The notes below the pieces were generated by a model. It searched no databases. It was not told where the DNA came from and worked only from the letters and a program-made list of their open reading frames with translations. A stretch of DNA of 24,551 nt from a virus: the IMG/VR virus record IMGVR_UViG_3300037119_000595, positions 1-24,551 of that record. One strand, written 5' to 3'. A program made the translations under genes and the position numbers. Within the stretch, counting starts at the first letter, position 1. Each line of letters begins with the position of its first letter. This document shows, in pieces, positions 3,304-21,571 of the stretch.

Positions 3304-6087
3304 GTGCCTGCGCCTACCAATGACAACTTCGCATCGGCAGAAGCACTGTCGACCACGCTGCCCGGATCACTGCCGGGACTGACGACGTTCGATGCAACAC
3401 TTGAAGGTAGTGAGCCGATCTACGGTGGTGGTGGGGATCACCAGAGCATATGGTTCACGTTCACACCTACATCGTCGGGTTGGCATCGATTCCAGATTCC
3501 AGTATCGTCGCTTGTCTATAACGGTACGCATACCGATTCGTGGGGAGAGATCGGTATTACGTTGTACCTGGGTGGCACAATAGTCGATACTCTTGCTGAG
3601 ACTACGTTCGCCAACCGTTTCACGTATCCATACATCGGTTGGGATATGGGTTTCACTGACCCTGGTTGGTCGAACGTACACAATCCCACAGTCGCAGCGG
3701 ATTTGGTCAGTGGTACGACCTACTACATCAAGGTCTATTCGCAACAGAATGGATCATTCAACCGATGCACTGTTGACTTTGATCTTGAGTGGGATGAACA
3801 GGCTACCGCTGCCAATCAGGATTTCACTAGTCGTCAAACCATTACTGGTTCAAGTGGTAGTGAGGATGTAGAGTGGGGTGTTCCCACTCTTGCAGAAACG
3901 GATGAGCCGCCCGCGTTCTACTGGAACGATGGCTTCTTGGATGGGTACTGTACCGTGTGGTACGAATGGACTGCACCGTCTAGCGGATGGTTTCAGTTTG
4001 AACTAGATAGTCCATCTGGTATCTACCCTGAATTAGCCATCTATACGGGTAGTGCGTTGAATGCGCTCACTGTTGTAGGAAAGAATCTTCAGGGAGATCA
4101 ATCTGATCTTTCTGATCTTTCGCGGATGGTTGGTAAGTGTGTCATTCGTTTCAATGCTACGGCCAGCACTGTTTACAAGATTCAATGTGCAGTGTTCGGT
4201 TCTACTGCGGTATCGACCGGAGACGTTGGTGAACTCACATGGGCTACTGCGTCTGCTCCTACTCAGGAAACTACGGGAGCGGCTGCTAGTGGCTCGTTCG
4301 TTCTATCGCGCGTAGACAACTTCGGTAACACCGACGACGAGCTACCACCCGATGCAGTCACACGACTCAGTGGTCATGCTGAATGGTGGTATGAGGATGG
4401 TGCCGTTGGCCGATCCAAGTGGTGGAAGTACGTAGCAGCCGGAAACGGCACGATGGTCATTGAAGCCAATGGGTACCGTGATGGTTTTGATGATCCCGAT
4501 ACAGGACACGCAGCATACGATGAGTATGCGCTGCTCGTATACAAGGGCGCCAACTTCGGCAGCCTAACTGACGCCACTACCAATGGTGACACTGGTACCC
4601 AGGATGCCGTTCTGATTGGCGCGGATCAATCGTATGCTGTTACCCACGATGGGAACTTCACTAGCCTAACAGTTGACTTCACTACGGGTGAAACTCTTTG
4701 GGTTTGCATGGTGGGTCTGTACGACAAGGACTACGATGCAGACACCATCGACGAAGCTGTTGCAGAGGATTGTCCGCAGCGTTCTATTGACCTCACGTTC
4801 AGTGATGGGTCTGTTCCTACTGATCCCCCAGAGAACGACGTGTACGCTGACACGCCCAACGCATGGCCGTACAATCTGTCGAAGAGTCGATGGGGTAACT
4901 ACTTCAACGTGCCTGATGCCGTGCAGATTGCAGGCACCACCATCCTCGCGACTGCCGATGTTGGTGAAGACCCTCATGGTGGGTTCGGCCCTGAACGAAG
5001 CGTGTGGTACCGCTTCTACGTCGAGAACGCTGGTGACTGGAAGTTCTGGGTCGAGTCGGCTGTTGACTGTGTGCTTTCCGTATATGACCTTGTGGGACTG
5101 GGCATCGTGTCCATCGGTGAGGATGATGACAGCGGTACAGGCAACTGGCCTGAGCTTACGTTGACGTTGCCGCAGGGAGAGATTGCAATCGCAGTCGACT
5201 CCAAGACTGAAGGCGACTTCGTTCTCAAGATTCAGCGTCAGCCCGATGGCGGTGACACACCGCCTGCGAACGATGAGATTGCAAACGCAGTTGATATCTC
5301 ATCTATCCCGTTTACGGACACGGGTACTACGGTCGAAGCACAGGTAGAACCATTTGAGTGGGACTCGCCTGAGCTTGGTATTGGGCCGTACGATTCAGTG
5401 TGGTACAAGTACGTCGCGCCTGCCAACGCCATGCTCAAGGTATGGTGTGACAACATCTCGCAGCTAGATGACTGGTATGTCTTCGTTGATCTATGGCATG
5501 GTGATGATCCCGAGACAATGGTGCCATATCCGAACCCGCCTGCGTACTGGTCACAGGGCGTGTTCTACGCGGATGCCATCGAAGACCCTGGCGAGAATCT
5601 TGAGAATGCACTTACTTTCCCAGTCGAGTCAGGCGAGACATACTACATTCGTGTACAGACTGAGAGTGGTGGATCAGAGGACTTCACGATCCACGTTGAT
5701 GAAGGGCCGATCTACGTTGACATCCAGGTCAGTGGCGACGAAGAGATGCATGGCACGCTGTTGGATGATGCAGAGGTGTACATCGACATCCAGGTCAGCG
5801 GCAGTGAGATTCACCACATCGCCAACACGACAGATGCTGATACGGTGTTGGTTGACATCCAACCTAGTGGTGTTGAGTTCACCGCTGACGAGTTTCTTGA
5901 CTCGGCTACCGTGTATGTCGACATTCAGTTCATGGGTGGTGAATGCTTCTCAGCACACACTGGTCTGATGATGGATGCAGAGGCTGATCCACGTTGGATC
6001 GCAGGAGCGGACGTGCGCTGGCAAACGATGGACGTGCGACAGCGTTGGGAAATCGTGGACGTACAGAATGAAGGAGTGCACTGCTGA
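3304..6087 (+). CDS. multidomain fibre-like virion protein with VDIQ repeats (cassette copy 1)
   Basis: This 927-residue protein starts at GTG 3304, one base after the previous stop. Residues 1 to about 800 appear to hold five related regions (roughly 1-165, 166-320, 321-505, 506-650, 651-800). Several open with a '(P)xNDxxxxA' segment, carry a 'S(V/I)WF/YxFT/YxxP..G' strand and end with 'GxTYYIxV'. This pattern resembles bacterial pre-peptidase C-terminal-type beta-sandwiches, many of which bind polysaccharide. Residues about 800-885 are four repeats of the VYVDIQVSG type. The last about 35 residues contain spaced RW motifs (DPRW, VRW, QRW). It overlaps its small companion by TGATG. The N-terminal two thirds use more A/T-ending codons than the head genes. 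A role as tail or head fibre contacting the cell surface is inferred. Confidence 0.72.
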   Translation: MPAPTNDNFASAEALSTTLPGSLPGLTTFDATLEGSEPIYGGGGDHQSIWFTFTPTSSGWHRFQIPVSSLVYNGTHTDSWGEIGITLYLGGTIVDTLAETTFANRFTYPYIGWDMGFTDPGWSNVHNPTVAADLVSGTTYYIKVYSQQNGSFNRCTVDFDLEWDEQATAANQDFTSRQTITGSSGSEDVEWGVPTLAETDEPPAFYWNDGFLDGYCTVWYEWTAPSSGWFQFELDSPSGIYPELAIYTGSALNALTVVGKNLQGDQSDLSDLSRMVGKCVIRFNATASTVYKIQCAVFGSTAVSTGDVGELTWATASAPTQETTGAAASGSFVLSRVDNFGNTDDELPPDAVTRLSGHAEWWYEDGAVGRSKWWKYVAAGNGTMVIEANGYRDGFDDPDTGHAAYDEYALLVYKGANFGSLTDATTNGDTGTQDAVLIGADQSYAVTHDGNFTSLTVDFTTGETLWVCMVGLYDKDYDADTIDEAVAEDCPQRSIDLTFSDGSVPTDPPENDVYADTPNAWPYNLSKSRWGNYFNVPDAVQIAGTTILATADVGEDPHGGFGPERSVWYRFYVENAGDWKFWVESAVDCVLSVYDLVGLGIVSIGEDDDSGTGNWPELTLTLPQGEIAIAVDSKTEGDFVLKIQRQPDGGDTPPANDEIANAVDISSIPFTDTGTTVEAQVEPFEWDSPELGIGPYDSVWYKYVAPANAMLKVWCDNISQLDDWYVFVDLWHGDDPETMVPYPNPPAYWSQGVFYADAIEDPGENLENALTFPVESGETYYIRVQTESGGSEDFTIHVDEGPIYVDIQVSGDEEMHGTLLDDAEVYIDIQVSGSEIHHIANTTDADTVLVDIQPSGVEFTADEFLDSATVYVDIQFMGGECFSAHTGLMMDAEADPRWIAGADVRWQTMDVRQRWEIVDVQNEGVHC
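5701..5958 (+). repeat. four ~20-residue 'VDIQ' protein repeats
   Basis: Four in-frame copies of a 20-23 residue unit with the core (V/I)Y(V/I)DIQ.SG occur near the C-terminus of the 927-residue protein. They are the same unit as the 34 copies in the 782-residue protein further downstream. Nucleotide sequences differ between copies, so they are not a recent tandem duplication. Confidence 0.85.
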
Positions 6088-6389
6088 TGCCTATCGGACA
6101 GCTAGTTCCAGGCACGAAGGAGAACATTCGCGTCACCGTGCGCGACAACGCGGGAACGGTCACTGATCTGACAGGCTCAGGGCCGACGTTCACGGTGAAG
6201 GACAGTGCTGGCGCAGACAAGGTGACGGCGGTTGCTGCATCGGCATCCGGCCTCGTCATCACTGTGCCGCTTGATACAACGTCAGGGGGTGTATGGGACG
6301 AGGATGAATATCGCCTGTTCGTCAAGTACACGGTCGGCTCCGAGGTGATCGAGAAGGGGCCGTTCTACTTCGTACTCAGTTACGCATAA
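6087..6389 (+). CDS. small beta-rich companion protein (cassette copy 1)
   Basis: This 100-residue protein starts at ATG 6087, overlapping the TGA of the large fibre-like gene. It reads as a single small beta-sandwich: strands around IRVTVRD, PTFTVKD, LVITVPL, EYRLFVKYTV and GPFYFVLSY. It is clearly related to the 103-residue protein encoded at 11849-12160. Both carry 'VRD/LRD..(T)DL', then '(D)EY(R/K)L(F/Y)VK(Y/W)T', then 'KGP(F/L)YF' at matching positions. Both follow directly on a large protein ending in VDIQ repeats and an RW-rich tail. I infer that it binds or caps that fibre, or acts as its chaperone. No signal peptide or catalytic motif. Confidence 0.72.
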   Translation: MPIGQLVPGTKENIRVTVRDNAGTVTDLTGSGPTFTVKDSAGADKVTAVAASASGLVITVPLDTTSGGVWDEDEYRLFVKYTVGSEVIEKGPFYFVLSYA

Positions 6390-7429: not shown

Positions 7430-7542
7430 TCCACTTGGGTGCAGAGACAATCAAGTCGTACAGAAAGTCGATTGCCATGAAGCTTGAGTCGAAGAACATC
7501 ACACACTCGGTTGTCATCGCCATGAAGCAGGGTTGGCTATGA
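7228..7542 (+). CDS. LuxR/GerE-type helix-turn-helix protein (start unresolved; possible -1 frameshift product)
   Basis: From about position 7354 this frame encodes a classic LuxR C-terminal HTH: LTDSEYSTLFFAAYGFTAAE, then GAETIKSYRKSIAMKL, then a C-terminal helix ending AMKQGWL. This matches the family pattern 'LT..E...L.....G.t..EI...L.....TVK.....I..KL'. The nearest in-frame ATG is 7228, which has no Shine-Dalgarno and adds about 40 Arg/Ala-rich residues that look like a shadow of the overlapping sigma-like gene. There is no ATG, GTG or TTG between 7228 and the HTH. The frame is -1 relative to the sigma-like gene, so the HTH may be read by frameshifting as the C-terminal domain of that protein, or an indel may have split one gene. 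The stop TGA overlaps the next ATG (ATGA). Confidence 0.55.
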   Translation: MGARDIHAEGAESLAAYHRGLLAARDSKLSEYRRSVRVEDHRTLTDSEYSTLFFAAYGFTAAETGRVIHLGAETIKSYRKSIAMKLESKNITHSVVIAMKQGWL

Positions 7543-8261
7543 GTAAGTATCTCGATGGCGTAAACGATGAAATCGGTTGGTCAGACGCAGCATTCACTGG
7601 TTCGGGGGCATTCACTATCGCTATGTTGTTGAAGCTCAACAATGCGAACGGTGATTGGGCATCGTGCATCAACATAATCGACAGCTTTGCCGACAATGCA
7701 ATTGAAGTAACTAGATCGGGAGCATCCAACAAGTCTGCGCTAACAACTGAGAACGAGAGTAACTTTAGTGTACCGACATACGGGTGGACGACAGCCGACG
7801 GTTGGTGTCTGATTGCCGTTTCTAAAGCAAGCGGTCTAGTATTTCCATCCTTCACCAAGTATCCTATTGGTGGATCACCTACTCACGGCGACGGTGATGT
7901 TCTGATACCGAATCAGAATGCAGCCATCAGTATTGTATTCGGTACATTTCAAGGGACTGACTGGTTTGATGGATGGTTGGCAGCAGTAGCATTGTGGAAC
8001 TCAGCACTAAGTACTGCACAACGGGAATCTCTAGTCACAACCATGACTAGAGACAACTGGGTCAGCCTGTCTCCACAATGGATGTTTGATGAGCTAGATG
8101 ACTTTCAGACGGACTATTCATCTGGTGGTGCTACACGAGTTACGTATAGCGGCCCTACGGATGATGCAGATGATCCTGCGGGTTGGGACGATTGGGCAGT
8201 AGTACCGCCTGAGAAGCAAACGTATTACGCATCTCGTCGTCGAACTACGAGTAGACGCTAA
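7539..8261 (+). CDS. LamG/concanavalin A-like virion protein
   Basis: This 240-residue protein starts at ATG 7539 (ATGA overlap with the preceding stop; TTG 7533 is a weaker choice). The opening KYLDGVNDEI and TIAMLLKLNN, and the later DWFDGWLAAVALWNSALSTA, match the LamG/concanavalin A-like pattern 'LDG.nD.i...F.i...vk' ... 'w.dG.i..v..wn.aLs..e'. In phages such domains sit on fibres or minor tail proteins and bind sugars or pack as jelly rolls. The C-terminal 12 residues (YYASRRRTTSRR) are strongly basic. Codons are more A/T-ending than in the head genes. Function as a surface or adsorption protein is inferred. Confidence 0.7.
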   Translation: MSKYLDGVNDEIGWSDAAFTGSGAFTIAMLLKLNNANGDWASCINIIDSFADNAIEVTRSGASNKSALTTENESNFSVPTYGWTTADGWCLIAVSKASGLVFPSFTKYPIGGSPTHGDGDVLIPNQNAAISIVFGTFQGTDWFDGWLAAVALWNSALSTAQRESLVTTMTRDNWVSLSPQWMFDELDDFQTDYSSGGATRVTYSGPTDDADDPAGWDDWAVVPPEKQTYYASRRRTTSRR

Positions 8262-9509: not shown

Positions 9510-11858
9510 GTGCCGCGCTTCCCCATCAGAGCTAGGCGTCGTCCAGGGCGGATCGGTCTATACCGATCTATCTTCGCGATCGGTGGTGCAGTCGCTGGTG
9601 ATGTTGAAGAGGAAACCACTGATAGTGCAACAATCCTCGTTGACATTCAAGTCACGTCGTCGGACATCCTTGAGGCGAGTGACGCAGCAACCGTACTCGT
9701 AGACATCCAGCCGTCGGGTACTGAACTACGTGAGTCAACGGATGCTGACACTGTACTGGTCGATATTCAAGCGATCTCTACCGCAGAGATTGCGGAGTTT
9801 GTCGATGCAGCCACGGTGACGGTCGACATTCAGGTTACGTCGGCAGACATCCTAGAAGCTGTTGATGCAGCAACTGTGCCTGTCGACATTCAGGTGTCGG
9901 GTGTTGAAGAACGTACTGTCACGGATGCGGCAGAGGTGTACGTAGACATCCAGTCGTCGGGTACTGAGCTACGTGAGGTATTCGATGCTGCCGAGGTGTA
10001 CGTCGATATTCAGGCTAGTGGCACAGACGTAAGGGAGGTAGAGGATGCAGCTACCGTCTATGTCGACATCCAGACAAGTGCAGTTGACGTTGCCGACACT
10101 GTGGATGCAGCCGAGGTATACGTTGATATTCAGTCTAGCGGCACTGATGTTCGGGACGCTACTGATGCTGCAACAGTTGAGATCGACATACAGACATCTG
10201 GTACGGAGCTTGCTGAGTACGTAGATGCACAGACTGTACTAGTTGACATCACGCCAAGTGGTACAGATACTCGCGAGAGCGAGGATAGTGCTACAGTGCT
10301 GGTTGACATTCAGGCCAGCGGAACCGAGTTCAGGGAGACGCTAGAGAGTGCAGAAGTTTACGTCGACATCACAGTTAGTGGAAGCGACGAACACGTACAC
10401 GAAGACTCTGCAACAGTTCCAATCGGCATTGCAGTCGATTCATCAGAACTGGCAGAGTTCACAGACAGCAGTACGGTCTTGGTCGACATCGATGTCGCGA
10501 GCAGTGACATCCTTGAGGCCACCGATGCAGAAACCATTTACGTTGACATCAGTGCGAGTGGCACCGACATCCTTGAGGCCACCGACGAAGCTACAGTCTT
10601 CGTCGACATTCAGGTTGCATCAGCAGATATCCATGAGGCCGATGATTCCGCGACCGTCTACACGGATATCACAGTCGAGTCGACGGATGTCCTTGAAGCG
10701 TCGGATGCTGCGGAAGTCTATGTAGACATCCAGGCGAGCGGGACTGATGAGTACATCCCGCCCGGTACGACTGACTACGAGGATGCGGATACCGTCCTCG
10801 TTGACATCGACGTACAGTCGAGTGAAGAGCGTGAGTCGACTGACGCTGCCGAGGTGTACCTCGACATCAGCGTGGCCTCGTCGGACATCGCTGAGTTCGT
10901 AGACGACAACACCGTCTACCTCGACATTCAGGTCACGCCCTCCGACATTCTTGTCGCGACGGATGACGCCACTGTGCCGATCTTGATCTCGGTGGCCTCG
11001 TCAGAGATTGCACAGTTTGTTGATGAGGCCACTGTCCCGGTCACGATCACTCCGTCCGCGACTGACATCCATGACGCAGTGGATGCCAACGAGGTCTACG
11101 TTGACATCCAGCCGTCTGGTACGGATGAACACAGCACAGAGGGTGTCGATGCCGCGACGATCCTTGTCGACATTCAGCTTACGTCGAGTGAACTGGCCGA
11201 GTTCGTTGACGAGGCTACCGTCCCGATTGACATCTCCGTACAGTCTACTGAGCAGCGTGAGTCCACCGATGCCGAGACTGTCTACGTTGACATTCAGACT
11301 TCGGCCACAGAAGAGCGGGTCGTTGAGGATGCTGCGTCCGTATACGTCGACATCAGCACCCAGGCTGACGACGTTGCTACATACACGGATGCGGCCACGG
11401 TGCCCGTCGCCATCTCCGTGCAGTCCGTCGACACGGCGCAGTTCGTTGATGCAGCCGAGGTCTACGTTGACGTGCAGGCGTCGGGCACCGAAGAAGTCAC
11501 CACAGAGGCAGACGACGCTGCCACAGTCTACGTTGATCTGACTGTCATCCCTGTCGAGTTCCTTGAGGCACTTGACGCGGCCACAGTCTATCTCGACATC
11601 CAACTGATCAGTGTTGAGTACGCTGAGTACAGCGACGAGGCTACGGTCTACGTCGACATTCAAGTCCAGTCGGAGCGTGTACGAGTCGACTTCATCTTGG
11701 ATGTTGTAGGATTCAAGTTCCGATGGCGCTGTGAGACTGCACTCTTCCGTTGGGAACACAGTCAGCCTGTCGTACAGTGGCGTGTCCTTGAGATGATCAC
11801 CCGTTGGGCGGTCATGACCACGAAGAAGCTCACATGGAGGTCGGAAGCATGGAAGTGA
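9510..11858 (+). CDS. 34-repeat 'VDIQ' fibre-like protein (cassette copy 2)
   Basis: This 782-residue protein starts at GTG 9510, three bases after the preceding stop. Residues 1-36 are basic (PRFPIRARRRPGRIGLYRS) and then hydrophobic. Residues about 38-728 are 34 consecutive units of about 20 residues with consensus DAATVYVDIQ.SGTD..E, each probably two short strands and a turn. The tract is very acidic and lacks Cys. The last about 50 residues hold spaced Trp/Arg motifs (FRW, FRW, VQW, TRW, TWR). The regular length and register suggest an extended stalk or solenoid. It may be a tail fibre shaft, head whisker or a length-setting element; which one cannot be told from sequence. It overlaps its companion gene by 10 bases. 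Confidence 0.75.
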   Translation: MPRFPIRARRRPGRIGLYRSIFAIGGAVAGDVEEETTDSATILVDIQVTSSDILEASDAATVLVDIQPSGTELRESTDADTVLVDIQAISTAEIAEFVDAATVTVDIQVTSADILEAVDAATVPVDIQVSGVEERTVTDAAEVYVDIQSSGTELREVFDAAEVYVDIQASGTDVREVEDAATVYVDIQTSAVDVADTVDAAEVYVDIQSSGTDVRDATDAATVEIDIQTSGTELAEYVDAQTVLVDITPSGTDTRESEDSATVLVDIQASGTEFRETLESAEVYVDITVSGSDEHVHEDSATVPIGIAVDSSELAEFTDSSTVLVDIDVASSDILEATDAETIYVDISASGTDILEATDEATVFVDIQVASADIHEADDSATVYTDITVESTDVLEASDAAEVYVDIQASGTDEYIPPGTTDYEDADTVLVDIDVQSSEERESTDAAEVYLDISVASSDIAEFVDDNTVYLDIQVTPSDILVATDDATVPILISVASSEIAQFVDEATVPVTITPSATDIHDAVDANEVYVDIQPSGTDEHSTEGVDAATILVDIQLTSSELAEFVDEATVPIDISVQSTEQRESTDAETVYVDIQTSATEERVVEDAASVYVDISTQADDVATYTDAATVPVAISVQSVDTAQFVDAAEVYVDVQASGTEEVTTEADDAATVYVDLTVIPVEFLEALDAATVYLDIQLISVEYAEYSDEATVYVDIQVQSERVRVDFILDVVGFKFRWRCETALFRWEHSQPVVQWRVLEMITRWAVMTTKKLTWRSEAWK
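9621..11693 (+). repeat. 34 tandem ~60-base coding repeats (20-residue protein units)
   Basis: The repeats are in phase with the reading frame at about 60 bases each; a few units carry 1-6 extra residues (for example the 19th, 25th and 31st). Protein conservation is high at the VDIQ core, but codons vary freely between copies (GTTGACATTCAA, GTAGACATCCAG, GTCGATATTCAG), so DNA identity is low. Early units use more A/T-ending codons than late units. Confidence 0.9.
11836..11840 (+). promoter_or_regulatory. ribosome binding site deciding the companion start
   Basis: GGAGG lies 8 bases before ATG 11849. It overlaps an in-frame ATG at 11834, which therefore cannot be served by it. This selects ATG 11849 over ATG 11834 and over a TTG at 11804. 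Confidence 0.65.
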
Positions 11859-12160
11859 TCACGAAGGGTAGCGTCGAGCCGCTGATGGTTGCACTCCGCG
11901 ACCGACTCAACAACATCACCGATCTCGATGATGTCACTGGCAAGTTGTACGACGTGAAGAGGAAGTCCGACGATCTGGCCGTGCAGACGAATCAGGTCTG
12001 GGTTGTCGATCCCGACTTCCCCATGTACGCCGTGTGCGTGGTTGATTCCACCCTTTCCAACTATGCCCCTGGCGACGAGTACAAGTTGTACGTCAAGTGG
12101 ACAGAAGGAGGCTCACAAGTGGTGAAGGGGCCACTCTACTTCCGTGTCGAAGGTGACTGA
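11849..12160 (+). CDS. small beta-rich companion protein (cassette copy 2)
   Basis: This 103-residue protein starts at ATG 11849, chosen by the GGAGG 8 bases upstream. It is a paralogue of the 100-residue protein at 6087-6389. Shared positions include 'LRD....(I)TDL', the 'GDEYKLYVKWTEGG' strand pair (WDEDEYRLFVKYT in the other copy) and 'VKGPLYFRVE' (EKGPFYFVLS). As with the first copy, it directly follows a gene ending in VDIQ repeats and an RW-rich tail, overlapping it by 10 bases. The repeated pairing argues that the two proteins act together, for example as fibre plus cap, adaptor or assembly factor. No enzymatic motif. Confidence 0.72.
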   Translation: MEVITKGSVEPLMVALRDRLNNITDLDDVTGKLYDVKRKSDDLAVQTNQVWVVDPDFPMYAVCVVDSTLSNYAPGDEYKLYVKWTEGGSQVVKGPLYFRVEGD

Positions 12161-12356
12161 GCTAGAGGACATCACTGAGGCTGATCGTGTGGTTGGCTTC
12201 AAGATGCAGTGGCTGATCCATGCAGGCTACTCCCCCGACAACGCCGAGATGCTTGCGAAGACAGAAGGTGTAGACTGGCACCTCGCAGTCGATATCTATC
12301 CGCTCGCCAAGGCAAAGGGAGTAGATGAGCAAGTGATCGTGGACATGTTCACATGA
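12144..12356 (+). CDS. small helical protein next to terminase
   Basis: This protein has 70 residues from GTG 12144; GTG 12153 is an alternative start, and neither has a good Shine-Dalgarno. The core, FKMQWLIHAGYSPDNAEMLA followed by VDWHLAVDIYPLAKAKG, is a helix pair of the type 'l..aGY....A..lA....vD.h.Av.ll..G'. I associate this pattern with small uncharacterised proteins located beside head genes of actinobacterial phages. It may help terminase or head assembly, but no role is established. The stop TGA overlaps the terminase start (ATGA), implying coupled translation. At 70 residues it is short for a full small terminase subunit. Confidence 0.6.
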   Translation: MSKVTELEDITEADRVVGFKMQWLIHAGYSPDNAEMLAKTEGVDWHLAVDIYPLAKAKGVDEQVIVDMFT

Positions 12357-13765
12357 GCCTCGTTGACCTAGAGCGCAAGGCGTACATCTTTGAGCAGCTT
12401 GACTACAAGCCGCACGATGGACGCCAGCAGGCCATCCACGATTCTGACGCACGGTTCAAGGCACTCGCCTGTGGGCGTCGTTACGGAAAGACCACGTTCG
12501 GTGCGCGTGAGCTAACCGCCGCCATGTGCGATCCATACGATCCCGGTAGGTACTGGATCGTTGGCCCGAAGTACACGCTTGCAGAGAAGGAGTTCCGCAT
12601 CGTGTATTTCGACATCATGCGCACTCTTGGCTTCGGCAACCACAAGGGTGTCAAGAAGTCGTACAACTTGACGCAGGGCAACATGTCTATCGAGATGCCG
12701 TGGGGTTCCGTGCTTGAGGTGAAGTCGGCGCAGCATCAGGACACATTGCTTGGTGACAAGTTGAAGGGCGTCATCATGGCAGAGGCAGCGCGACACACGT
12801 CTGACACGTGGGAGCAGTACGTACGTCCGGCCCTCTCGGATGAGAAGGGATGGGCGATCTTCACGTCTACCCCTCGCGGATACAACTGGTTCCAGGGACT
12901 GTGGATGCTTGGACAGGATCGTGCCACACATCCGTGGTATGAGTCATGGCGTCTACCCTCATGGGAGAACAGGCACATCTTCCCCGGCGGCTTCGACGAT
13001 CCTGAGATTCAGGAGATGAAGGAACGTAACTCGCCGCAGTACTTCGCGCAGGAGATTGCAGCGGAGTTCACTGCGTTCACTGGGAAGATTTACGACGAGT
13101 TCGATCCATCCATCCACGTCTACGATCACAGGGACATTCCGTACAATCCTGCGTTCACAAACGTGTGGGCACTTGACTACGGATGGAGCAACGAGTTCGT
13201 CTGTCTCGATGTGATGATCGATGCAGAGGACAACATGTACGTGTGGCGTGAGTATATGAAGAGCGAGGTCGCCACCATGCAGCATGCGGACATCCTCATG
13301 GCGCGTGATCATCCCACTTCGTACCATGTGGATTGGGGTGCAGGCGATCCCCGTGGCCCTGATCAGGCATCGACCATCTCGCAGAAGACGCACGTCCAGA
13401 TTTACAGCAACGATGTCGCATCCAACTCGCATGAGTCGTGGGTACTCGGTGTCGAACAGGTCAAGCAGATGCTGAAGGTACAGCCCACAGGCTTGCCTAA
13501 GCTCCGTATCAGCAACGCCTGTCCTAACCTCATTCGACAGATGGATCAGTTGCATGCCCTTGAATCGAAGGAAGACAAGAACGCTGTTGAGGGTCAGCAC
13601 AAGTACGACGATCACGGCCCTGACGCATTGCGCTACCTCGTTGGTCAGTACTTCCTCAACGGCGCTGGTTCGTCCCTGGGAGATATCTACCGTCCCGGTC
13701 AACGAACCGAAGCCGCCACCTTCTTCCAGACGGAAGGGCACATGAGTCGGTATGGCCGTTATTAG
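12353..13765 (+). CDS. terL: terminase large subunit (DNA-packaging ATPase/nuclease)
   Basis: This 470-residue protein powers genome packaging into the prohead and cuts the concatemer. The ATPase domain has Walker A GRRYGKTT at residues 41-48 and a Walker B-like strand GVIMAEAAR at 139-147 with catalytic Glu144; the usual Asp just before it is Ala143. The coupling motif lies near FTSTPRGYNWF. The RNase H-like nuclease domain shows an Asp in WALDYGWSN, an Asp in YHVDWGAGDPRG and the C-terminal DDHGPDALRY. Start ATG 12353 overlaps the preceding stop (ATGA). The gene overlaps the portal gene by 14 bases. Length is normal for the family. It is followed by portal, protease and capsid genes in standard order. 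Confidence 0.95.
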   Translation: MSLVDLERKAYIFEQLDYKPHDGRQQAIHDSDARFKALACGRRYGKTTFGARELTAAMCDPYDPGRYWIVGPKYTLAEKEFRIVYFDIMRTLGFGNHKGVKKSYNLTQGNMSIEMPWGSVLEVKSAQHQDTLLGDKLKGVIMAEAARHTSDTWEQYVRPALSDEKGWAIFTSTPRGYNWFQGLWMLGQDRATHPWYESWRLPSWENRHIFPGGFDDPEIQEMKERNSPQYFAQEIAAEFTAFTGKIYDEFDPSIHVYDHRDIPYNPAFTNVWALDYGWSNEFVCLDVMIDAEDNMYVWREYMKSEVATMQHADILMARDHPTSYHVDWGAGDPRGPDQASTISQKTHVQIYSNDVASNSHESWVLGVEQVKQMLKVQPTGLPKLRISNACPNLIRQMDQLHALESKEDKNAVEGQHKYDDHGPDALRYLVGQYFLNGAGSSLGDIYRPGQRTEAATFFQTEGHMSRYGRY

Positions 13766-15236
13766 CGACGAGCAGATCGTTCAGTATGTGTTGGAGCATC
13801 CCAACACAGTAGGGATGATCGTCCCGCAGGAACCGAAGCGAGGGTTCCTGTCACGCATGCTTGGCGCGAATCAAGCTGTTCCTGTACTCGATCCCCGTCG
13901 ACCGGCGGGAAACACGTCGTACACGTCTGGTGGAACAATCGATGCTCCGAAGGGTGACGGTGAGGCAGGCTCATCCCGTGGTGGTCTGAGTCGCGATGTC
14001 GTTCCCGCGCTAGCCACTCGATCACAGGCGTTCCTCGTCTATGACGAGATGGTCAACGGTGACGCGGCAGTCGATGTATCTCTACGTGCGGCGAAGACAC
14101 CCGTCATGGGTGCATCCTATTTCGTAGAGGCTTTCGATCAGTCGCCCGAAGCTGCCGACATCGCGGAGTTCGTGGCGTTCAATCTGTTGCACGGATCGAA
14201 CAGCCCGTTCCTCAACGTGCTTGAGGACATCCTCCGCATGTATGAGTACGGATTCTCCGTGCTTGAGAAGGTGTACGAGGAACGAGAGTGGGCACCGAAG
14301 CGCACTGGCGCGAATCGCAAGAAGTACACGATGCTGCGCAAGTTGAGCGCACGGCCCACTGCCACGATCAAGGAGATCAAGTACGACAACAACGGTGGGC
14401 CAGTAGAGATTCTACAGTCTGCTGTGCAGGCCGATGGTAAGGCCGTCGACAAGACGATCCCCATCGAGCAGGCCATCATCTTCACCCATAATCGCAAGGG
14501 CGGCAACCTTGAGGGCAAGTCGCTACTTCGTACTGCGTATCGTCCTTGGTACTTCAAGAACAATCTGTACAACATCGACGGTATCCAGAAGGAACGGCAC
14601 GGCATGGGGTTCCCCGTGATCGAGCTTCCTGCTGGTTACAAGGAAGCGGATAAGACTGCTGCACTTGAACTGGTGCGCAACATCCGCACGAACGAACATG
14701 GTGGCGCAGTCCTTCCGCCTGGATGGGTACTGCGCTTCCTAGAGCTTCCCGGCCAGCCGGTCGACGTGATGAGATCGATCGAACACCACAACGGGACGAT
14801 CATGCTCAACACGATGACGCAGTTCCTGTTGCTTGGTCTGGAAGGTTCCGGCGGTGGTAGGGCCACGTCTGGTTCACACCAAGACATGTTCAACAAGTCG
14901 CTGCGATATGTAGCGAACCAGATATGCGACAGCGTGAACTTGTACTGTGTGCCCTACCTCGTCGGCTACAACTTCAAGACGGACAAGTTCCCGAAGCTAC
15001 GCGCACGCAACCTTGGTGAGACGAAGGACTTGCAGCAGTGGGCTTCGGCCATGAGCAACTTGAAGAAGAACGGACTGATCACCTACACGCCTGAGACTGA
15101 AGAGTGGGTGCGCGAGATCGCTGACGCTCCGCTCACACCGGGCGATCCAGATGCGGATGCTGCACGCGGTGCAAGTTCCGATCCCGGTCGGCTCAATGCA
15201 CGTGATGATGCCGCGACCGATAACGCGGAGGGCTAA
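13752..15236 (+). CDS. portal protein (DUF935/Mu gp29-like)
   Basis: This 494-residue protein forms the dodecameric channel at one head vertex through which DNA enters and leaves. The middle carries EGKSLLRTAYRPWYFKNNL, a hallmark of the DUF935 (Mu gp29-type) portal family, preceded by 'PVMGASYFVEA' and 'EDILRMYEYGFSVLEKVY', which fit the clip and stem regions. The C-terminal 'LKKNGLITYTPETEEWVRE' helix and acidic, Ala-rich tail are also usual. Start ATG 13752 lies inside the end of the terminase gene. The stop TAA overlaps the protease ATG (TAATG). Length is close to that of known relatives. Confidence 0.92.
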   Translation: MAVISDEQIVQYVLEHPNTVGMIVPQEPKRGFLSRMLGANQAVPVLDPRRPAGNTSYTSGGTIDAPKGDGEAGSSRGGLSRDVVPALATRSQAFLVYDEMVNGDAAVDVSLRAAKTPVMGASYFVEAFDQSPEAADIAEFVAFNLLHGSNSPFLNVLEDILRMYEYGFSVLEKVYEEREWAPKRTGANRKKYTMLRKLSARPTATIKEIKYDNNGGPVEILQSAVQADGKAVDKTIPIEQAIIFTHNRKGGNLEGKSLLRTAYRPWYFKNNLYNIDGIQKERHGMGFPVIELPAGYKEADKTAALELVRNIRTNEHGGAVLPPGWVLRFLELPGQPVDVMRSIEHHNGTIMLNTMTQFLLLGLEGSGGGRATSGSHQDMFNKSLRYVANQICDSVNLYCVPYLVGYNFKTDKFPKLRARNLGETKDLQQWASAMSNLKKNGLITYTPETEEWVREIADAPLTPGDPDADAARGASSDPGRLNARDDAATDNAEG

Positions 15237-16897
15237 TGAAGAGTTACCCACAGATCGTTTCAACTATCACGTCTACGCCGTGGATGATGATGCCCAACGC
15301 GTTGCAGATGATGCTTGAGATCGTCGAGGCTCATCTCAATGGGACGGTACACATCGATAACGACGTGCGTGATACACGCGTGAAGCTCCCTGCACGTCAG
15401 GGTGCTATCGGCGTGTTGCAGTTGCATGGGCCTATCTTCCCGAAGGCCAACATGATGACGCAGATGAGCGGGGCCACTTCGCTTGAAGAGTGGTCTGGTC
15501 AGTTCCAGCAGATGATCGCAGATGATTCTATCTCTGCCATCTTGCTCGACATCGATTCGCCCGGTGGATCGTCCATGATGATCCCTGAGACTGCACAGAT
15601 GATTCGTGAGGCTCGGGAGGTCAAGCCGATCTACGCTGTGGCGAACACGATGGCGGGGAGTGCAGCTTACGGCTTGGCCGCACAAGCCACACAGTTGTTC
15701 GCCTCGCCATCTTCTGTGGTTGGTTCCATCGGTACGTACATGGTGCATACCGATACGTCGGAACTGGCAGAGAAGATGGGCGTCAAGCAGACGGTCATCA
15801 AGGCAGGACGCTTCAAGGCTGTCGACATGGAAACACTCGATGCCGATGCCAAGCAGTACATGCAGGAACTTGTCGGTGACATCAACGATGTCTTCATCAA
15901 CGAGATTGCACTGGGTCGCAACCTATCGTCGGATGCGATCAAGGGAACGGAGGCCCGTATCTATGCACCCCGACAGGCTGTCGAGGTTGGCATTGCTGAT
16001 GGGGTTGCATCGTTCGATGAAGTTCTCAGTGATCTAGTTGAGCAAGCAGGAGGTGGTCAACAGAGCGGCGTCTCGTTCGCGTCATCCAACGGTGGCACAG
16101 GGTGGTATCAGTTCACCCCTCGGCCTCATGCATCCTACGATGCAGACAAGGAACACTCGGAACCCGGCACTGGGTTGGGCGGCGAGCCTACTCCACGTGA
16201 GCCGCCTGAAACTGGTGATCCCGCCATCGTGGGTGGATGGAGGCGCGATTCACCTCCCGCAGCATTCGAACCGGAAACGGAGGAAGCAGTGAATAGAGAG
16301 TGGCTGATTCGTCAGGCAACAACTCTCGGTATCGCGTTCGATGAGGACACGACCGATGAGATGCTTGCTGAAGCGGTCGAGTCGCGGATGGCTGAGATTG
16401 TGGTGCCTCTCAACGATGCAACACAGCACGCACAGCAGGCACGTGACTTCGAGCGCGACTATCCTGAGCATGCTCGGCAGCTTCGCGAGATGCAGGATAG
16501 GGAGCGTGCTGGCGCAGCCAGTGCGTTCGCAAACATGTACGAGAGGTTCGATGGTCAGAACCGTGGCTTCTCGCCTCTCGTCCGTGATCAGATTGTCCAG
16601 TCTCATGAGAGGGCCGCTGCACGTACGTTCAGCGTGACCGATCTTCGTGAACTACTCGACACGGTTTCGTCGGGTGAGGCAGTCGTGCAGTACGGTGAGA
16701 TCGGTTCGACTCGGCAGATCGACTCGGACGGATCGGACGAGGTGACGGGTGACTTCACTGTGGATCGCAAGCGATTCACTGATCTCGTCAAGCAGGCAAT
16801 GACGGAGGACAACCTGGATCGTGCGGCAGCAGTGGCGCATGTGTCGCAGGCACATCCCGATCTTGCGCGTGCATACGCGCATGGGCACACACGCTAG
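15236..16897 (+). CDS. S49-family head maturation protease fused to scaffold domain
   Basis: This 553-residue protein is organised like lambda gpC. Residues about 55-260 are an S49 (SppA-like) peptidase: LLDIDSPGGS (103-112), then MAGSAAYGLA with nucleophile Ser142, a PSSVVGSIGTY segment (158-168) and AGRFKA with Lys194 as the likely general base. The 52-residue Ser-Lys spacing equals that of the lambda gpC dyad. A Gly/Pro/acidic linker (about 285-350) precedes a helical, charged scaffold-like region (352-553). A second start at GTG 16289 probably yields that region alone. It processes the scaffold and portal-proximal proteins during prohead maturation. ATG 15236 overlaps the portal stop. Confidence 0.92.
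   Translation: MKSYPQIVSTITSTPWMMMPNALQMMLEIVEAHLNGTVHIDNDVRDTRVKLPARQGAIGVLQLHGPIFPKANMMTQMSGATSLEEWSGQFQQMIADDSISAILLDIDSPGGSSMMIPETAQMIREAREVKPIYAVANTMAGSAAYGLAAQATQLFASPSSVVGSIGTYMVHTDTSELAEKMGVKQTVIKAGRFKAVDMETLDADAKQYMQELVGDINDVFINEIALGRNLSSDAIKGTEARIYAPRQAVEVGIADGVASFDEVLSDLVEQAGGGQQSGVSFASSNGGTGWYQFTPRPHASYDADKEHSEPGTGLGGEPTPREPPETGDPAIVGGWRRDSPPAAFEPETEEAVNREWLIRQATTLGIAFDEDTTDEMLAEAVESRMAEIVVPLNDATQHAQQARDFERDYPEHARQLREMQDRERAGAASAFANMYERFDGQNRGFSPLVRDQIVQSHERAAARTFSVTDLRELLDTVSSGEAVVQYGEIGSTRQIDSDGSDEVTGDFTVDRKRFTDLVKQAMTEDNLDRAAAVAHVSQAHPDLARAYAHGHTR
16277..16284 (+). promoter_or_regulatory. internal ribosome binding site for a nested scaffold gene
   Basis: ACGGAGGA lies inside the protease gene, with GGAGG at 16279-16283 and 5 bases to an in-frame GTG at 16289. 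Sequence and spacing are as good as for the main genes of this window. It falls exactly at the border between the linker and the helical scaffold region. Confidence 0.7.
16289..16897 (+). CDS. nested scaffold protein (Nu3-like), in frame within the protease gene
   Basis: Starting at GTG 16289 (codon 352 of the protease), this frame gives a 202-residue protein with the composition of a phage scaffold: highly charged, helical, Gln/Glu/Arg/Ala-rich (QHAQQARDFERDYPEHARQL), without Cys. The lambda Nu3 scaffold is made in just this way from inside gene C. Scaffold proteins direct capsid assembly and are later cleaved or expelled. The evidence is the well placed GGAGGA site, the domain border at this point and the absence of any other scaffold gene before the capsid gene. 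Production in vivo is inferred. Confidence 0.68.
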   Translation: MNREWLIRQATTLGIAFDEDTTDEMLAEAVESRMAEIVVPLNDATQHAQQARDFERDYPEHARQLREMQDRERAGAASAFANMYERFDGQNRGFSPLVRDQIVQSHERAAARTFSVTDLRELLDTVSSGEAVVQYGEIGSTRQIDSDGSDEVTGDFTVDRKRFTDLVKQAMTEDNLDRAAAVAHVSQAHPDLARAYAHGHTR

Positions 16898-16914
16898 AAG
16901 GGAGGTAAGGACAC

Positions 16915-17310
16915 ATGCCGCCTAGCAAGACTCGTAACTACATTCAGGACAAGGGGTACGACGCAGCCGAAGCTCTCACCAAGTTTCGTGCAGTGAAGTT
17001 CACCGCTGCTGAGACTGTTGGCCCCGTCACTGCTGACACCGATATCATCGCTGGTGTTGTGCAGCATGATGTAACCGCAGGAGAGATTCTGCGCGGCAAG
17101 GGTGCGTCCATCGCTGTCGAAGGCGATACGCTGATGGAGTGCACGGCGAACATCGCCATTGGTGCACTCGTCGTCATCAGCGCCAACGGACGTGCAACGA
17201 CAGGCACGGCTGGTGATCGAGTGGTTGGTCACTGTGTCGAGGCAAACGCCGACGGAGCCGGTGGGTTCGCGAGGGTTCATCTCTCGCCTGCTGCTGGTAT
17301 CCACCCGTAG
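16915..17310 (+). CDS. capsid decoration (cement) protein
   Basis: This 131-residue protein starts at ATG 16915 after GGGAGG. The sequence is dominated by short strands and small residues (FTAAETVGPVTADTDIIAGV, GDTLMECTANIAIGALVVIS, VVGHCVEANADGAGGFARVH). This matches the DUF2190-type decoration proteins that bind trimer positions on expanded HK97-fold capsids, the functional counterpart of lambda gpD. Position between protease/scaffold and the major capsid protein is exactly that of gpD. Length is typical (about 110-140 residues). No catalytic residues. Confidence 0.82.
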   Translation: MPPSKTRNYIQDKGYDAAEALTKFRAVKFTAAETVGPVTADTDIIAGVVQHDVTAGEILRGKGASIAVEGDTLMECTANIAIGALVVISANGRATTGTAGDRVVGHCVEANADGAGGFARVHLSPAAGIHP

Positions 17311-17331
17311 AAAGGTAGGTGAGATAACGAC

Positions 17332-18336
17332 ATGTTCTACGATCCCGGTACCTTGTATGTCGACCCATGGCTGACAGACTTCTCGGTCGGCTATGGCTCG
17401 CCTACTCTCATCGGGCTTCGCCTGATGCCGCTGGCACCTGTCAACACGCAGTCAGCGAAGTATCGCGTGTTCGACAAGTCCGGTCGCGTTCGCTTCCCGT
17501 CTCGTCGTGAGCCGGGTGCCGTTGCGAACGAGGTTCGCGGTAGGCGTTGGAGCGAGGACTCGTTCAAGACGCGCGAGCATTCGCTTCAGGCCGCAGTTGC
17601 TGATGAGGAATATCAGCAGCTTGGTTCGCAGGGTGGTCTTGCGAACAGTGCAAACGGTGGTGCAATCCAGTTCAATCCGGGTGAGGATGCTGCAACGCAG
17701 ACGCTCGACTCGCTTCTGCTTGAGCATGAGATTGCAACCGCTGCACTACTTCGCAACACGGCAACGTATCCCGTGGGCAACACGGTCACGCTGGTTACAG
17801 CAGATCAGTGGGACAACTACGCGGGTGCAACGTCGAACCCCATCGACATCGTTCGTGCCGCGGTCAACAAGATCACAGTGCTGACGGGTCAGGCACCGAA
17901 CCGCATGGCAATGGGTTCACCGGGCCAGGGATGGCTTGAGAACCACCCCGACATGGTGGCGCGCTTCACGAACTTCGCGCTCACCGATGACGGTGCATTC
18001 CGTGCGCTCACGGGCTACGACGGTGAGATGATTCTCATCGGTGACGACTACTACAACGACGACGACATTCAGGAGTCCACCACCAACCTTGTGTCGGTGT
18101 GGGGCAAGGATGTCTGGCTCGGCTACGTCAACGACTCGTTGGGCCAGAACGATCTGTCCTTCGGGAAGACGTTCGCACAGACGTATCCCGATGGTACTAC
18201 TCGTCCCGTCGACAGATGGCGCGAAGAGGGCCGCAAGTCCGATCTCGTCCGCACATCGTGGAAGTGGGACTTGAAGGTCACGTTCTCATCCGCAGGCTAT
18301 CTGATCAAGGATGCCTTCGGTTCATCCGCGTGGTGA
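17332..18336 (+). CDS. major capsid protein (HK97 fold)
   Basis: This 334-residue protein starts at ATG 17332, with AAGGTAGG upstream. It fits a lambda gpE-like capsid subunit. An N-terminal arm (FYDPGTLYVDPWLTDFSVGY) is followed by an extended loop with many Arg/Ser, a spine helix region (TQTLDSLLLEHEIATAALL), an A-domain segment with NRMAMGSPGQGWLENHPDMV, and a C-terminal strand WKWDLKVTFSSAGYLIKDA that is characteristic of the family. Size and place between the decoration protein and connector genes support the call. No N-terminal scaffold (delta) domain is present, which fits the separate scaffold encoded with the protease. Confidence 0.9.
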   Translation: MFYDPGTLYVDPWLTDFSVGYGSPTLIGLRLMPLAPVNTQSAKYRVFDKSGRVRFPSRREPGAVANEVRGRRWSEDSFKTREHSLQAAVADEEYQQLGSQGGLANSANGGAIQFNPGEDAATQTLDSLLLEHEIATAALLRNTATYPVGNTVTLVTADQWDNYAGATSNPIDIVRAAVNKITVLTGQAPNRMAMGSPGQGWLENHPDMVARFTNFALTDDGAFRALTGYDGEMILIGDDYYNDDDIQESTTNLVSVWGKDVWLGYVNDSLGQNDLSFGKTFAQTYPDGTTRPVDRWREEGRKSDLVRTSWKWDLKVTFSSAGYLIKDAFGSSAW

Positions 18337-18348
18337 TAGGAGAGAATC

Positions 18349-18786
18349 ATGGCGCGACCGCGTAACGAGAAGAAGGAAGAGTCCGAGTTCTACGCATGGA
18401 GCAACATCTACTACGGTGGCGAGACTGAAGAGCGTACTGCACCGAACGGTAGTACTCGCAAGATCGTGGTGAGTCGCAACATCGTGGAATGCGGACAGCC
18501 TGTGTCACAGGCACAGCTTGGCCTGGATGATGATGAATGGGCGCATCTGCTGGAAGGACAGTCGGTGCGTCCATATCCTCTTCCCGCGGGTACCGACGAG
18601 CATACGTCGGCACATCGTGCAGTCATGCGCATGATCGTGGACGAGGAAGGCGAGATCGATCCCAACAAGCTGATGGCGTTGACGGGTGCACAGCATGGTG
18701 CAATCGTCACGCTGCCCCCTGCAATGCACGGGCCTGCGTCGGAAGACGCACCTGTGTTGGGTGAGGATAAGCCCGAGGGGGCGTAG
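18349..18786 (+). CDS. hypothetical protein between capsid and connector genes
   Basis: This 145-residue acidic protein starts at ATG 18349 with GGAGAG upstream. Residues about 14-65 look like a small beta domain (FYAWSNIYYGGETEERTA ... KIVVSRNIVECGQPVS). The middle is helical (LGLDDDEWAHLLEGQSVRPY), and the C-terminus is Pro/Glu-rich and probably flexible. The family is not recognised. The position is where many long-tailed phages encode a small head-completion or capsid-accessory protein. The following gene starts 2 bases after the stop, so translation is probably coupled. Confidence 0.62.
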   Translation: MARPRNEKKEESEFYAWSNIYYGGETEERTAPNGSTRKIVVSRNIVECGQPVSQAQLGLDDDEWAHLLEGQSVRPYPLPAGTDEHTSAHRAVMRMIVDEEGEIDPNKLMALTGAQHGAIVTLPPAMHGPASEDAPVLGEDKPEGA

Positions 18787-18788
18787 CG

Positions 18789-19223
18789 ATGCCGTTTGTC
18801 AGCGATGCAGATGTGCAAGTTCATCTGCCGTATGACAAGCTGAAGATAGAGACTATCCCTGACGATCTGATCCAGTGCAAGCTTGACTCGGAGAGGATCG
18901 TCAGGGGTTATCTCGCTGGCGTTGTCGATTCGGCAGTACTTGCGTCTTGGGCTACACCCGAGACGACACCTGAAGTCATTCGTGCTATCACGGGACGCTT
19001 CTGTGCTGCTCTGATCTATCGCACACGTTACAGCGAGAATCGTCTTGGTGATCCCGAGTTTGCACAGAACAAGTACCAAGAGGCGATGGACTTGCTGATG
19101 AAGGTGATCAACGGAACGCTACCCATTCCTGATGTCGAGATCGGCACGAACTTCGACAACACGTGGTTCTGGCCGAACGACACAACAGACGATCCTAAGT
19201 TCACGATGGCTGACCAATACTGA
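18789..19223 (+). CDS. head-tail connector/adaptor protein (gp36/gp6-like)
   Basis: This 144-residue protein starts at ATG 18789. The pattern FVSDADVQVHLPYDKLKIET, 'IPDDLIQCKLDSERIVRGYL' and a long helix with 'EVIRAITGRFCAALIYRTRY' is that of the helical adaptor proteins (DUF1320/gp6-like) that stack under the portal. The C-terminal tail is extended. Its place between the capsid and tail-completion genes fits. The precise subfamily (Mu gp36-like or HK97 gp6-like) cannot be settled by eye. The stop precedes the next start by 5 bases. Confidence 0.75.
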   Translation: MPFVSDADVQVHLPYDKLKIETIPDDLIQCKLDSERIVRGYLAGVVDSAVLASWATPETTPEVIRAITGRFCAALIYRTRYSENRLGDPEFAQNKYQEAMDLLMKVINGTLPIPDVEIGTNFDNTWFWPNDTTDDPKFTMADQY

Positions 19224-19228
19224 TCTCG

Positions 19229-19828
19229 ATGGGCGCACACATCACATGGGTGTGGGAACCTGACCCTGGCGTATATGCGAGCGCCATGTATCGGACAGCG
19301 GATGCGTTGCGCAACCCTGCTGCACCATTGCTGTTCGCTGCGAAGCAGATGCAGGAAGAGATCAAGGCATCTTTCCTCTCGCAGACTTCACCCGATGGTA
19401 GGCAATGGGTGGACTGGTCGGACAAGTACAGGCCCATTGCGGAGGCGTATCCCAACGTCGGCATCCTACGTCGAGATGAACATCTGTACGAAGCAGCTAT
19501 TGACGAGGATGCATTCGTCATCACGGGTGACACTCTGTTCTATGACACAAAGGGATGGCCGTGGTCGACGGGTAAGAATCGCATCCAGTACGGGTGGGTG
19601 CATCAGGATGGATCGGATGCAGCTAACATCGAACAGCGACAGTTCGTAGGAGTTAGTGTTGAAGGCAATCGCATCATCCTGAACGCATTCGGTGAGTGGT
19701 TCGATAACGTGTTGGCGCTGTATCTCACCCCGTCTGGTGGTCTAGGCATTCGTGGTCGTAGCTCACTGGGTACGTTCGTTCCGATGGAAGCGATGACGTT
19801 CCGTCCAGGGCGTCGTAGGCTCCGGTAA
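19229..19828 (+). CDS. virion morphogenesis / head-tail joining protein (Mu gpG-like)
   Basis: This 199-residue protein starts at ATG 19229; the Shine-Dalgarno is poor, so coupling to the upstream gene is likely. Key segments are a helix ending 'EIKASFLSQTSPDGRQWVDW' followed by SDKYRP, 'GILRRDEHLYEAA' and 'FYDTKGWPWSTGKNRIQYGWVHQDG'. These match the 'F....sPDG..W..Ls..Y' ... 'IL..tG.L' ... 'Y...hq.G' layout of the Mu gpG / phage virion morphogenesis family (Pfam05069-type), which acts in tail completion and head-tail joining. The C-terminus RPGRRRLR is basic. Length is somewhat above the usual 150-180 residues. Confidence 0.78.
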   Translation: MGAHITWVWEPDPGVYASAMYRTADALRNPAAPLLFAAKQMQEEIKASFLSQTSPDGRQWVDWSDKYRPIAEAYPNVGILRRDEHLYEAAIDEDAFVITGDTLFYDTKGWPWSTGKNRIQYGWVHQDGSDAANIEQRQFVGVSVEGNRIILNAFGEWFDNVLALYLTPSGGLGIRGRSSLGTFVPMEAMTFRPGRRRLR

Positions 19829-20283
19829 TGGCACAGGATTTCCATGACATCCTTCAACCATTCGACTACATCATTCAGATGCTCAAGGACGCACAGCCTG
19901 CCCTCGGCCTTGAGTATGTTGCAGAGAATGATGAGGACTTGCTCCCGGTCTATCCTGCCGCTCTCGTACAAGCAGATCGAACCGACCGGCAGATTCACAG
20001 CACGAACATGTTTCGTGTGGAGTTTCACCTGGACATATGGGTGTTCCACGCCGAACTATCCGTCGATACGGCGACACGATCTCGCAAGGACATTCAACTC
20101 GCAACCGATATCCGTAAGTTGCTTCATTCGGATAGGACGCTAGGAGGCCACATCATCCACGGATTCGTAGACGGTGAGTTTCCTGGCCTCTCGGCGCGAG
20201 TGACCGACATGGGTCAGACAGGGATTGTGACGACACGATTGACGTGGAGTGGATCGAATCGTGTCTTGTTCGATCAATCATAA
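19828..20283 (+). CDS. tail terminator protein (probable)
   Basis: This 151-residue protein starts at ATG 19828, overlapping the preceding TAA (TAATG). An alpha/beta arrangement with an N-terminal helix, a 'MFRVEFHLDIWVF' strand pair, a helix 'RSRKDIQLATDIRKLL' and a final strand 'GIVTTRLTWSGSNRVLF' resembles tail terminator proteins (lambda gpU / HK97-type), which cap the tail tube and set the joining surface to the head. Gene order (after the head-tail joining protein and before the tail tube) supports this. No search was run, so the call rests on fold-like pattern and position. Confidence 0.72.
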   Translation: MAQDFHDILQPFDYIIQMLKDAQPALGLEYVAENDEDLLPVYPAALVQADRTDRQIHSTNMFRVEFHLDIWVFHAELSVDTATRSRKDIQLATDIRKLLHSDRTLGGHIIHGFVDGEFPGLSARVTDMGQTGIVTTRLTWSGSNRVLFDQS

Positions 20284-20295
20284 GAAAGGCGGGAG

Positions 20296-20556
20296 ATGGC
20301 TTACACACTTGAAGTGAATCACCCGGACTTGCCGAAGGGTACCGAGATGGACTGCGACGGCATTCTGGTTGAGAACGGTTCGTCTCGTAAGCTCACAGCA
20401 GAAGATGAGCTTGCGTTTCTCGGACGTGTTGGCCGTAGCGTGAAGGACATCTACGGGCACGGTACGTTTGCGAAGCTCAGTGGTACAACTGAGCTTGACA
20501 CAAAGGCAGAGAAGACACAGGCTGCCGCTCTAGTGAAGGATGGAGGTGACAAGTAG
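20296..20556 (+). CDS. small hypothetical protein before the tail tube gene
   Basis: This 86-residue protein starts at ATG 20296 with AAAGGCGGGAG upstream. It follows a pattern I recall from small proteins near tail tube genes of actinobacterial phages: 'v....DfP.GTE....G......G....l...e...f..r.G.sv.d..g......sGt..l'. Here that appears as HPDLPKGTEMDCDG, ELAFLGRVGRSVKDIYG and FAKLSGTTEL. The function is not established. The last 20 residues are Lys/Ala-rich. The tail tube start follows directly after the stop, with the Shine-Dalgarno GGAGGT inside this gene. Confidence 0.65.
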   Translation: MAYTLEVNHPDLPKGTEMDCDGILVENGSSRKLTAEDELAFLGRVGRSVKDIYGHGTFAKLSGTTELDTKAEKTQAAALVKDGGDK

Positions 20557-21552: not shown

Positions 21553-21571
21553 CACTACAAAGGAGAGAGTA

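Follow-up and report, generated by a model that had tools for sequence, protein, structure and literature searches.

Our analysis of a 24,551-nt stretch of viral DNA (IMG/VR record IMGVR_UViG_3300037119_000595; hereafter, the window) points to a probable adhesion fibre of a tailed-phage virion, the stalk of which would be formed by a protein with 34 units of a 20-residue repeat. Its C-terminal tail, a row of segments headed by basic-aromatic pairs (the RW tail), would dock on a small immunoglobulin (Ig)-like adaptor encoded by the next gene. We hold this combined reading with moderate confidence. That the repeat protein is a stalk or fibre had already been put forward in a preliminary description of this DNA and is likely because of the gene context, the adaptor-like partner and the lectin-like domains that some repeat proteins contain. 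We further infer its presence in the virion, its anchoring by the RW tail, its orientation and its oligomeric state.

The 34-unit array

The repeat protein is encoded by an ORF with exact boundaries at 9510-11858 (+ strand, GTG start, 782 aa), which divides into a short basic leader of 37 aa (9510..9620, +), the array of 34 units at residues 38-728 (9621..11693, +) and a 54-aa RW tail made of tandem 8-10-residue segments (11694..11855, +). The anchor pattern and the unit HMM alike delineate 34 consecutive units, whose spacing is 20 residues in 29 of the 33 cases, the rest being 21, 22, 22 and 26. An HMM built from units 18-34 only recovers the first half of the array completely (17 of 17), and 500 shuffled versions of the protein yielded 7 HMM matches in total versus 34 in the real one; the near-constant period given in the preliminary description is thus upheld. 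The acidic array and basic N-terminus that it reported are likewise seen: the array has 163 D+E and 12 K+R residues (net -151), while the N-terminus carries a charge of +3 and the C-terminal tail one of +5. Its statement that Cys is absent is true of the array but not of the whole protein, the sole Cys of which lies in the tail (RWRC).

A consensus drawn from 554 distinct units in 44 proteins reads D-[AS]-[AN]-T-V-Y-V-D-I-Q-[PVA]-S-[GSA]-T-[ED]-x-x-E-x-V, with a near-invariant 20-residue period, a hydrophobic V5/V7/I9 pattern and turn candidates that are not invariant (P11 in 37% and G13 in 40%). Covariation within the unit is mainly of the i,i+2 type and falls in two stretches, positions 4-10 and 13-20, which argues for two β-strands per unit, as first supposed. 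Couplings between units are weak and join position 8 with positions 17/18; we draw no conclusion from them. AlphaFold models of six units, run as a single chain with 34 in-register rows, reached a pLDDT of 65 in the best case, with one long strand per unit, and of 41-51 in the others. Foldseek with the six-unit model returned no significant match, none being better than E 0.34, and the weak matches were mostly to β-solenoids (FapC, CsgA and ice-binding proteins). Such a poor single-chain prediction would be expected of an obligate oligomer, yet it is no proof of one.

Consistent with the earlier remark that no named fold is known for the unit, sequence and profile searches gave no valid match: the repeat protein retrieved nothing above the curated cut-offs of Pfam and NCBIfam, and the unit matched no named family in the PDB. 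An MvaI_BcnI match to the array of a relative (L006; 26.8 vs 25 bits) includes no stretch that passes alone and was judged spurious; a PDB sequence match to IcmE/DotG aligns a different short repeat across low-complexity sequence and was rejected; and the profile matches to 2kxy, which we take to be a YbbR domain, and to L-fuculose phosphate aldolase are not significant (E 0.055 and 0.1). The 50-position family phrog_10131, of unknown function, reaches E 4.6e-6 summed over weak matches, none of which is significant alone. A literature search for 20-residue phage repeats found nothing. By these sequence comparisons, the unit appears to define an undescribed repeat family.

The array is also old, its synonymous sites being saturated. 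The third base agrees at 43.4% of codons for identical residues versus 41.6% expected from codon usage alone, so the wide codon differences between units noted earlier are real, and Tandem Repeats Finder detects no DNA-level array at the repeat ORF. Unit identity is independent of distance (0.396 at lag 1 and 0.385-0.410 at lags 2-10). Given both this and the near-expected third-base agreement, the array has not been shaped by recent duplication. Together with the saturation, dN/dS values of 0.10-0.29 bear out the proposal of an old array under protein-level selection. The companion proposal, that the array avoids DNA recombination, is only partly right: the positional correspondence of units is maintained among close relatives, but a clean three-unit deletion separates two of them, one (L007) being without exactly units 9-11 of the other (L006). 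Unit number changes by whole units. Three relatives (L005, L006 and L025) have 36 units each, many single units of L025 being down to 25-60% identity.

The RW tail and its Ig-like partner

Judged from the available loci, the RW tail and the Ig-like protein form a constant pair, whereas the array is not constant. The segments of the tail in the window are RWRCETALF, RWEHSQPVV, QWRVLEMIT, RWAVMTTKKL and TWRSEAWK, and across the family basic-aromatic pairs lie 8 or 9 residues apart in 91 of 104 intervals, as against ~1.7 expected. The gene for the Ig-like β-sandwich partner (103 aa; 11849..12160, +), with an ATG at 11849 and GGAGG upstream, overlaps the stop of the repeat gene. An Ig-like ORF directly follows nearly every RW-tailed repeat protein, often with overlapping start and stop, and most repeat proteins without an RW tail have no Ig-like ORF after them. 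The partner is a separate ORF in the 36 cases detected, and these proteins of ~100 residues all belong to one family. An independent search that took the Ig-like protein as its starting point led to an RW-tailed product of the gene upstream in nearly every locus. The tails themselves are seen with 34, 31, 30, 28, 19, 13, 8, 4, 2, 1 or 0 units; in L063/L015 the paralogue's tail is degenerate, with EF/EW instead of RW.

Among close relatives, the number of units at this locus ranges from 0 to 36. In two contigs of ~57.5 kb each (G016 and G017), in which no unit was found anywhere, the place of the 782-residue protein is taken by orthologues of 69-70 aa that consist of the short leader followed by the RW tail. 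These contigs are near relatives of the window (terminase 70% and portal 73-77% identical), and the substitutions in the 69-70-aa ORF number 13, 10 and 27 at codon positions 1-3, a coding-type pattern. Tail and Ig-like sequences co-vary across the family (Mantel r 0.35, 0 of 5000 permutations). A within-genome swap test agrees in 9 of 15 comparisons, and in 6 of 6 among four genomes with a strong signal; linkage of adjacent genes alone could also suffice to produce this co-variation.

AlphaFold predicts the Ig-like protein with a pLDDT of 91.9. Its fold matches in the PDB include the baseplates of 80alpha (6v8i chain AN, TM 0.65) and TP901-1 (4v96, TM 0.60), and R4C (8gtd). The 80alpha chain, at 121 residues, has the length that the N-terminal domain of FibU should have, and the matched TP901-1 chains, at ~295 residues, are of the length of BppU. 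Since the phage chains score E 6e-3 or worse and immunoglobulin and T-cell-receptor domains score equally well, these matches speak to the fold class only and not to homology. In BFVD, 30 viral models match at E<=0.001, and phage proteins of ~100 residues are numerous among them; minor tail proteins appear once at E<=0.001 and twice just below. The model therefore suggests that the partner folds like the BppU-type adaptor domains, a likeness at the level of fold only.

Gene neighborhood and phage lineage

Four large contigs (G005, G001, G009 and G003) share one gene order on the same strand: variable fibre-type genes are followed by those for the repeat protein and the Ig-like protein, and then by the genes for terminase, portal, protease, decoration protein, capsid, tail tube and tape measure, with a separate small gene set 3′ of the tape measure gene. 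A group of ORFs heads this order (orf125/135/144/185), not all being detected in each contig. No protein of the cassette is more conserved than orf185 (1465-2022 in the window), with 70-85% identity across the lineage versus 45-60% for the terminase in the same contigs; neither cultured phages nor GTDB genomes yielded a match to it. A paralogous fibre-type protein of 927 aa (3304..6087, +) comprises ~800 residues of PPC-like β-domains, recognized by eye, then 4 units at 5698-5958 and, at 5959-6084, a short RW tail; directly after it comes a second Ig-like partner of 100 aa (6087..6389, +). The PPC domain is weakly detected in L033, a relative of this paralogue. Farther along the fibre-gene cluster lies a LamG/concanavalin-like protein (7533..8261, +; Laminin_G_3 E 1.9e-4, below the Pfam cut-off). 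Downstream of the Ig-like gene, the small conserved orf70 (12144..12356, +) precedes the genes for the large terminase, portal, S49 protease, decoration, major capsid and tail tube proteins (12353..22036, +), named from order, sequence and synteny; the tape measure gene is open at the end of the window.

Many of the repeat proteins bear globular inserts of 116-232 aa between units or extended N-terminal regions of up to 1123 aa; in L032, a LamG domain inside the repeat protein is detected above cut-off (E 5.7e-11). The leader TFxQSSxxPAFxxLPHLWxRRR occurs twice in L011:9827-11050 and L013:1862-3085, once in front of a sub-array of 7 units and once in front of one of 6, an arrangement that looks like a fusion of two complete proteins. 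Some phages encode additional repeat proteins upstream of the RW-tailed one (L009:7265-10585, L018:2674-3315 and L029:9902-10537); these lack a full RW tail, and no Ig-like gene follows them. Also within the fibre-gene cluster, two small ORFs at 6701-7542 resemble, by eye, HTH/sigma-type regulators (sigma-70-like and LuxR-like); the first is conserved in G009, and in L078 the zero-unit orthologue is immediately preceded by a LuxR-like ORF. The neighboring orf174 (6400-6924) has a run of ~12 prolines.

Two IMG/VR scans recovered relatives on 30 contigs with more than 550 distinct units, the repeat being widespread in one uncultured tailed-phage lineage. Scans of GTDB genomes with the repeat patterns used found no relative, and when four family members were compared with cultured phages by tblastn, the outcome was none but two weak cyanophage matches, to Pseudanabaena phage Pan4 and Microcystis phage Mae-JY02, the repeats of which are unrelated by HMM, so that we treat them as analogues. 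The terminase is ~36% identical to those of Arthrobacter and Microbacterium phages and the capsid protein shares no more than 28% identity with any known one; the source is a distant tailed phage with an HK97-type order of head genes.

Comparable systems, alternative readings and the proposed fibre

The cyanophage analogues (L053:5107-7292 in Pan4, as Pan4_26, and L054:5107-9323 in Mae-JY02) show a similar architecture, with 20-residue β-type repeats and an RW-like C-terminus, the repeat gene being followed by one or more genes for β-proteins of 98-125 aa, as here; the repeat proteins are annotated as hypothetical or as glycerophosphodiester phosphodiesterase. In Mae-JY02, one of the small β-proteins itself ends in RW segments. 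Among characterized systems, Ig domains attach the fibres of 80alpha in FibU/FibL (PMC7048315), and an Ig domain is used likewise in BppU (gp26) of phage Claus (PMC13252515). These BppU-type domains, in 80alpha, TP901-1 and Claus, are also Ig-like β-sandwiches of ~100 residues (TM 0.60-0.65) in proteins linking fibres or lectin domains to the virion; however, there the domain is the N-terminal part of the fibre protein, whereas here it is a separate gene. A stand-alone attachment protein is known in T5-like phages, where LtfC attaches the fibre LtfA and receives β-strands from it (PMC10713586). It too is a small single-domain β-protein with a gene adjoining that of the fibre, but in that system the root of the fibre is N-terminal and ltfC is upstream, while here the partner gene is downstream and the constant end of the fibre C-terminal. 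We also found no sequence relation between LtfC (PF23926) and the Ig-like partner, the hhalign probability being 0.1 and a profile match occurring in 1 of 13 contigs, below cut-off.

For the stalk itself, the triple β-spiral of the adenovirus and reovirus fibre type offers a parallel in its shaft of tandem two-strand units of similar length. Its hallmarks are a homotrimeric state and a two-strand repeat with a near-invariant Gly/Pro turn, and it shows no sequence match to our unit. The pentameric β-bracelet of the Orsay virus δ protein (PMC7565637) shares with the unit the φ-x-φ-x-φ strand (VYVDI), and its 8-residue period resembles that of the RW tail; however, it comes from an unrelated virus and the array has a period of 20, the 8-9-residue period being confined to the tail. 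With the per-residue values given in that work, the 690 residues of the array would extend ~61 nm as a β-spiral or ~33 nm as a triple β-helix (PMC7565637).

Several other readings can be set against the same observations. A monomeric parallel β-solenoid, with one coil per unit and the conserved D8/Q10 forming a binding face, would be compatible with a fibre role, and 20 residues is a normal coil size; moreover, the best AlphaFold model and the weak Foldseek matches tend that way. Yet those predictions are inconsistent and of low confidence, same-position coupling of neighboring units is near background (mean Z 0.48 vs 0.29), and if D1, D8 and D/E15 were stacked from coil to coil, a single rod would have to bear three ladders of acidic residues. 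These points render the solenoid doubtful. The coil spacing of such folds is ~0.48 nm, which would give ~16 nm for 34 coils. The strong acidity, the few residue types, the poor AlphaFold confidence and the tolerance of 0 to 36 units and of large inserts would also suit a largely unfolded, extended entropic bristle between leader and tail, but the near-invariant period with its hydrophobic V5/V7/I9 positions, the strand-typical i,i+2 covariation and the purifying selection make it improbable.

Position on the virion is a separate matter. The same stalk and adaptor might sit on the capsid or neck as a head or neck fibre rather than at the tail tip, as hinted by the location of the genes directly 5′ of those for terminase, portal and capsid in all mapped contigs, apart from the small set after the tape measure, and by the single Ig-like fold match in a portal-adaptor complex (8gtd). 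Nevertheless, the better phage matches are to baseplate fibre domains (6v8i and 4v96) and minor tail proteins, and gene order alone gives no virion position; we regard this placement as rather unlikely. A non-virion protein, for example a secreted or intracellular one that lies in the late operon by chance, would accord with the indirect nature of the virion assignment, but it is hard to square with the lectin-like domains, the adaptor-like partner and the invariant place beside structural genes, and we deem it quite improbable. The preliminary description had also raised a ruler, in which unit number sets the length of a virion part. Three relatives do hold 36 units despite the divergence of the units, but phages with 70% identical terminases have 0 to 34 units at one locus, two near relatives being without any, and in the four contigs compared, unit number does not follow the length of the tape measure (1086 aa with 36 units, 1133 with 13, 1345 with 27, and 1891 with 15 and 19-21). 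The ruler is thus highly improbable.

In the fibre that we favor, the C-terminal RW tail, with its row of 8-9-residue, β-prone segments, would dock on the Ig-like protein of ~100 residues, which may form a ring or collar holding the fibre on the virion. The units, each contributing two short β-strands, would build a regular and highly acidic stalk, at the outer end of which the N-terminus would face the host surface; any lectin-like domains that interrupt the row of units would be borne outwards with it. Unit number would set the length of this stalk and be free to vary from 0 to 36 in whole units; units and lectin-like domains would be optional extensions, the constant element being the root and not the repeats. 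In its ordinary aspect this is a probable phage fibre; what is unusual is the 0-36 range at one locus and the proposed split C-terminal docking module. A bolder version, which we offer tentatively as a possibility, is that these fibres form a class of their own with a novel oligomeric β-fold, in which a stalk of 0-36 modules, their length being fixed in close relatives, is rooted by C-terminal RW strands in a separate BppU-like ring, and the RW tail with its Ig-like partner constitutes a general docking standard. If that were true, unrelated 20-residue repeat stalks, those of the cyanophage analogues included, would be mounted on one standard of RW tail and stand-alone Ig-like protein. The unit is a candidate for a new β-fold and for a length-programmable protein rod, and the two-gene module of RW tail and Ig-like protein may mark fibre genes where sequence searches find nothing. 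Moreover, the natural series of 0 to 36 units at one locus would let the effect of fibre length on the phage be asked directly.
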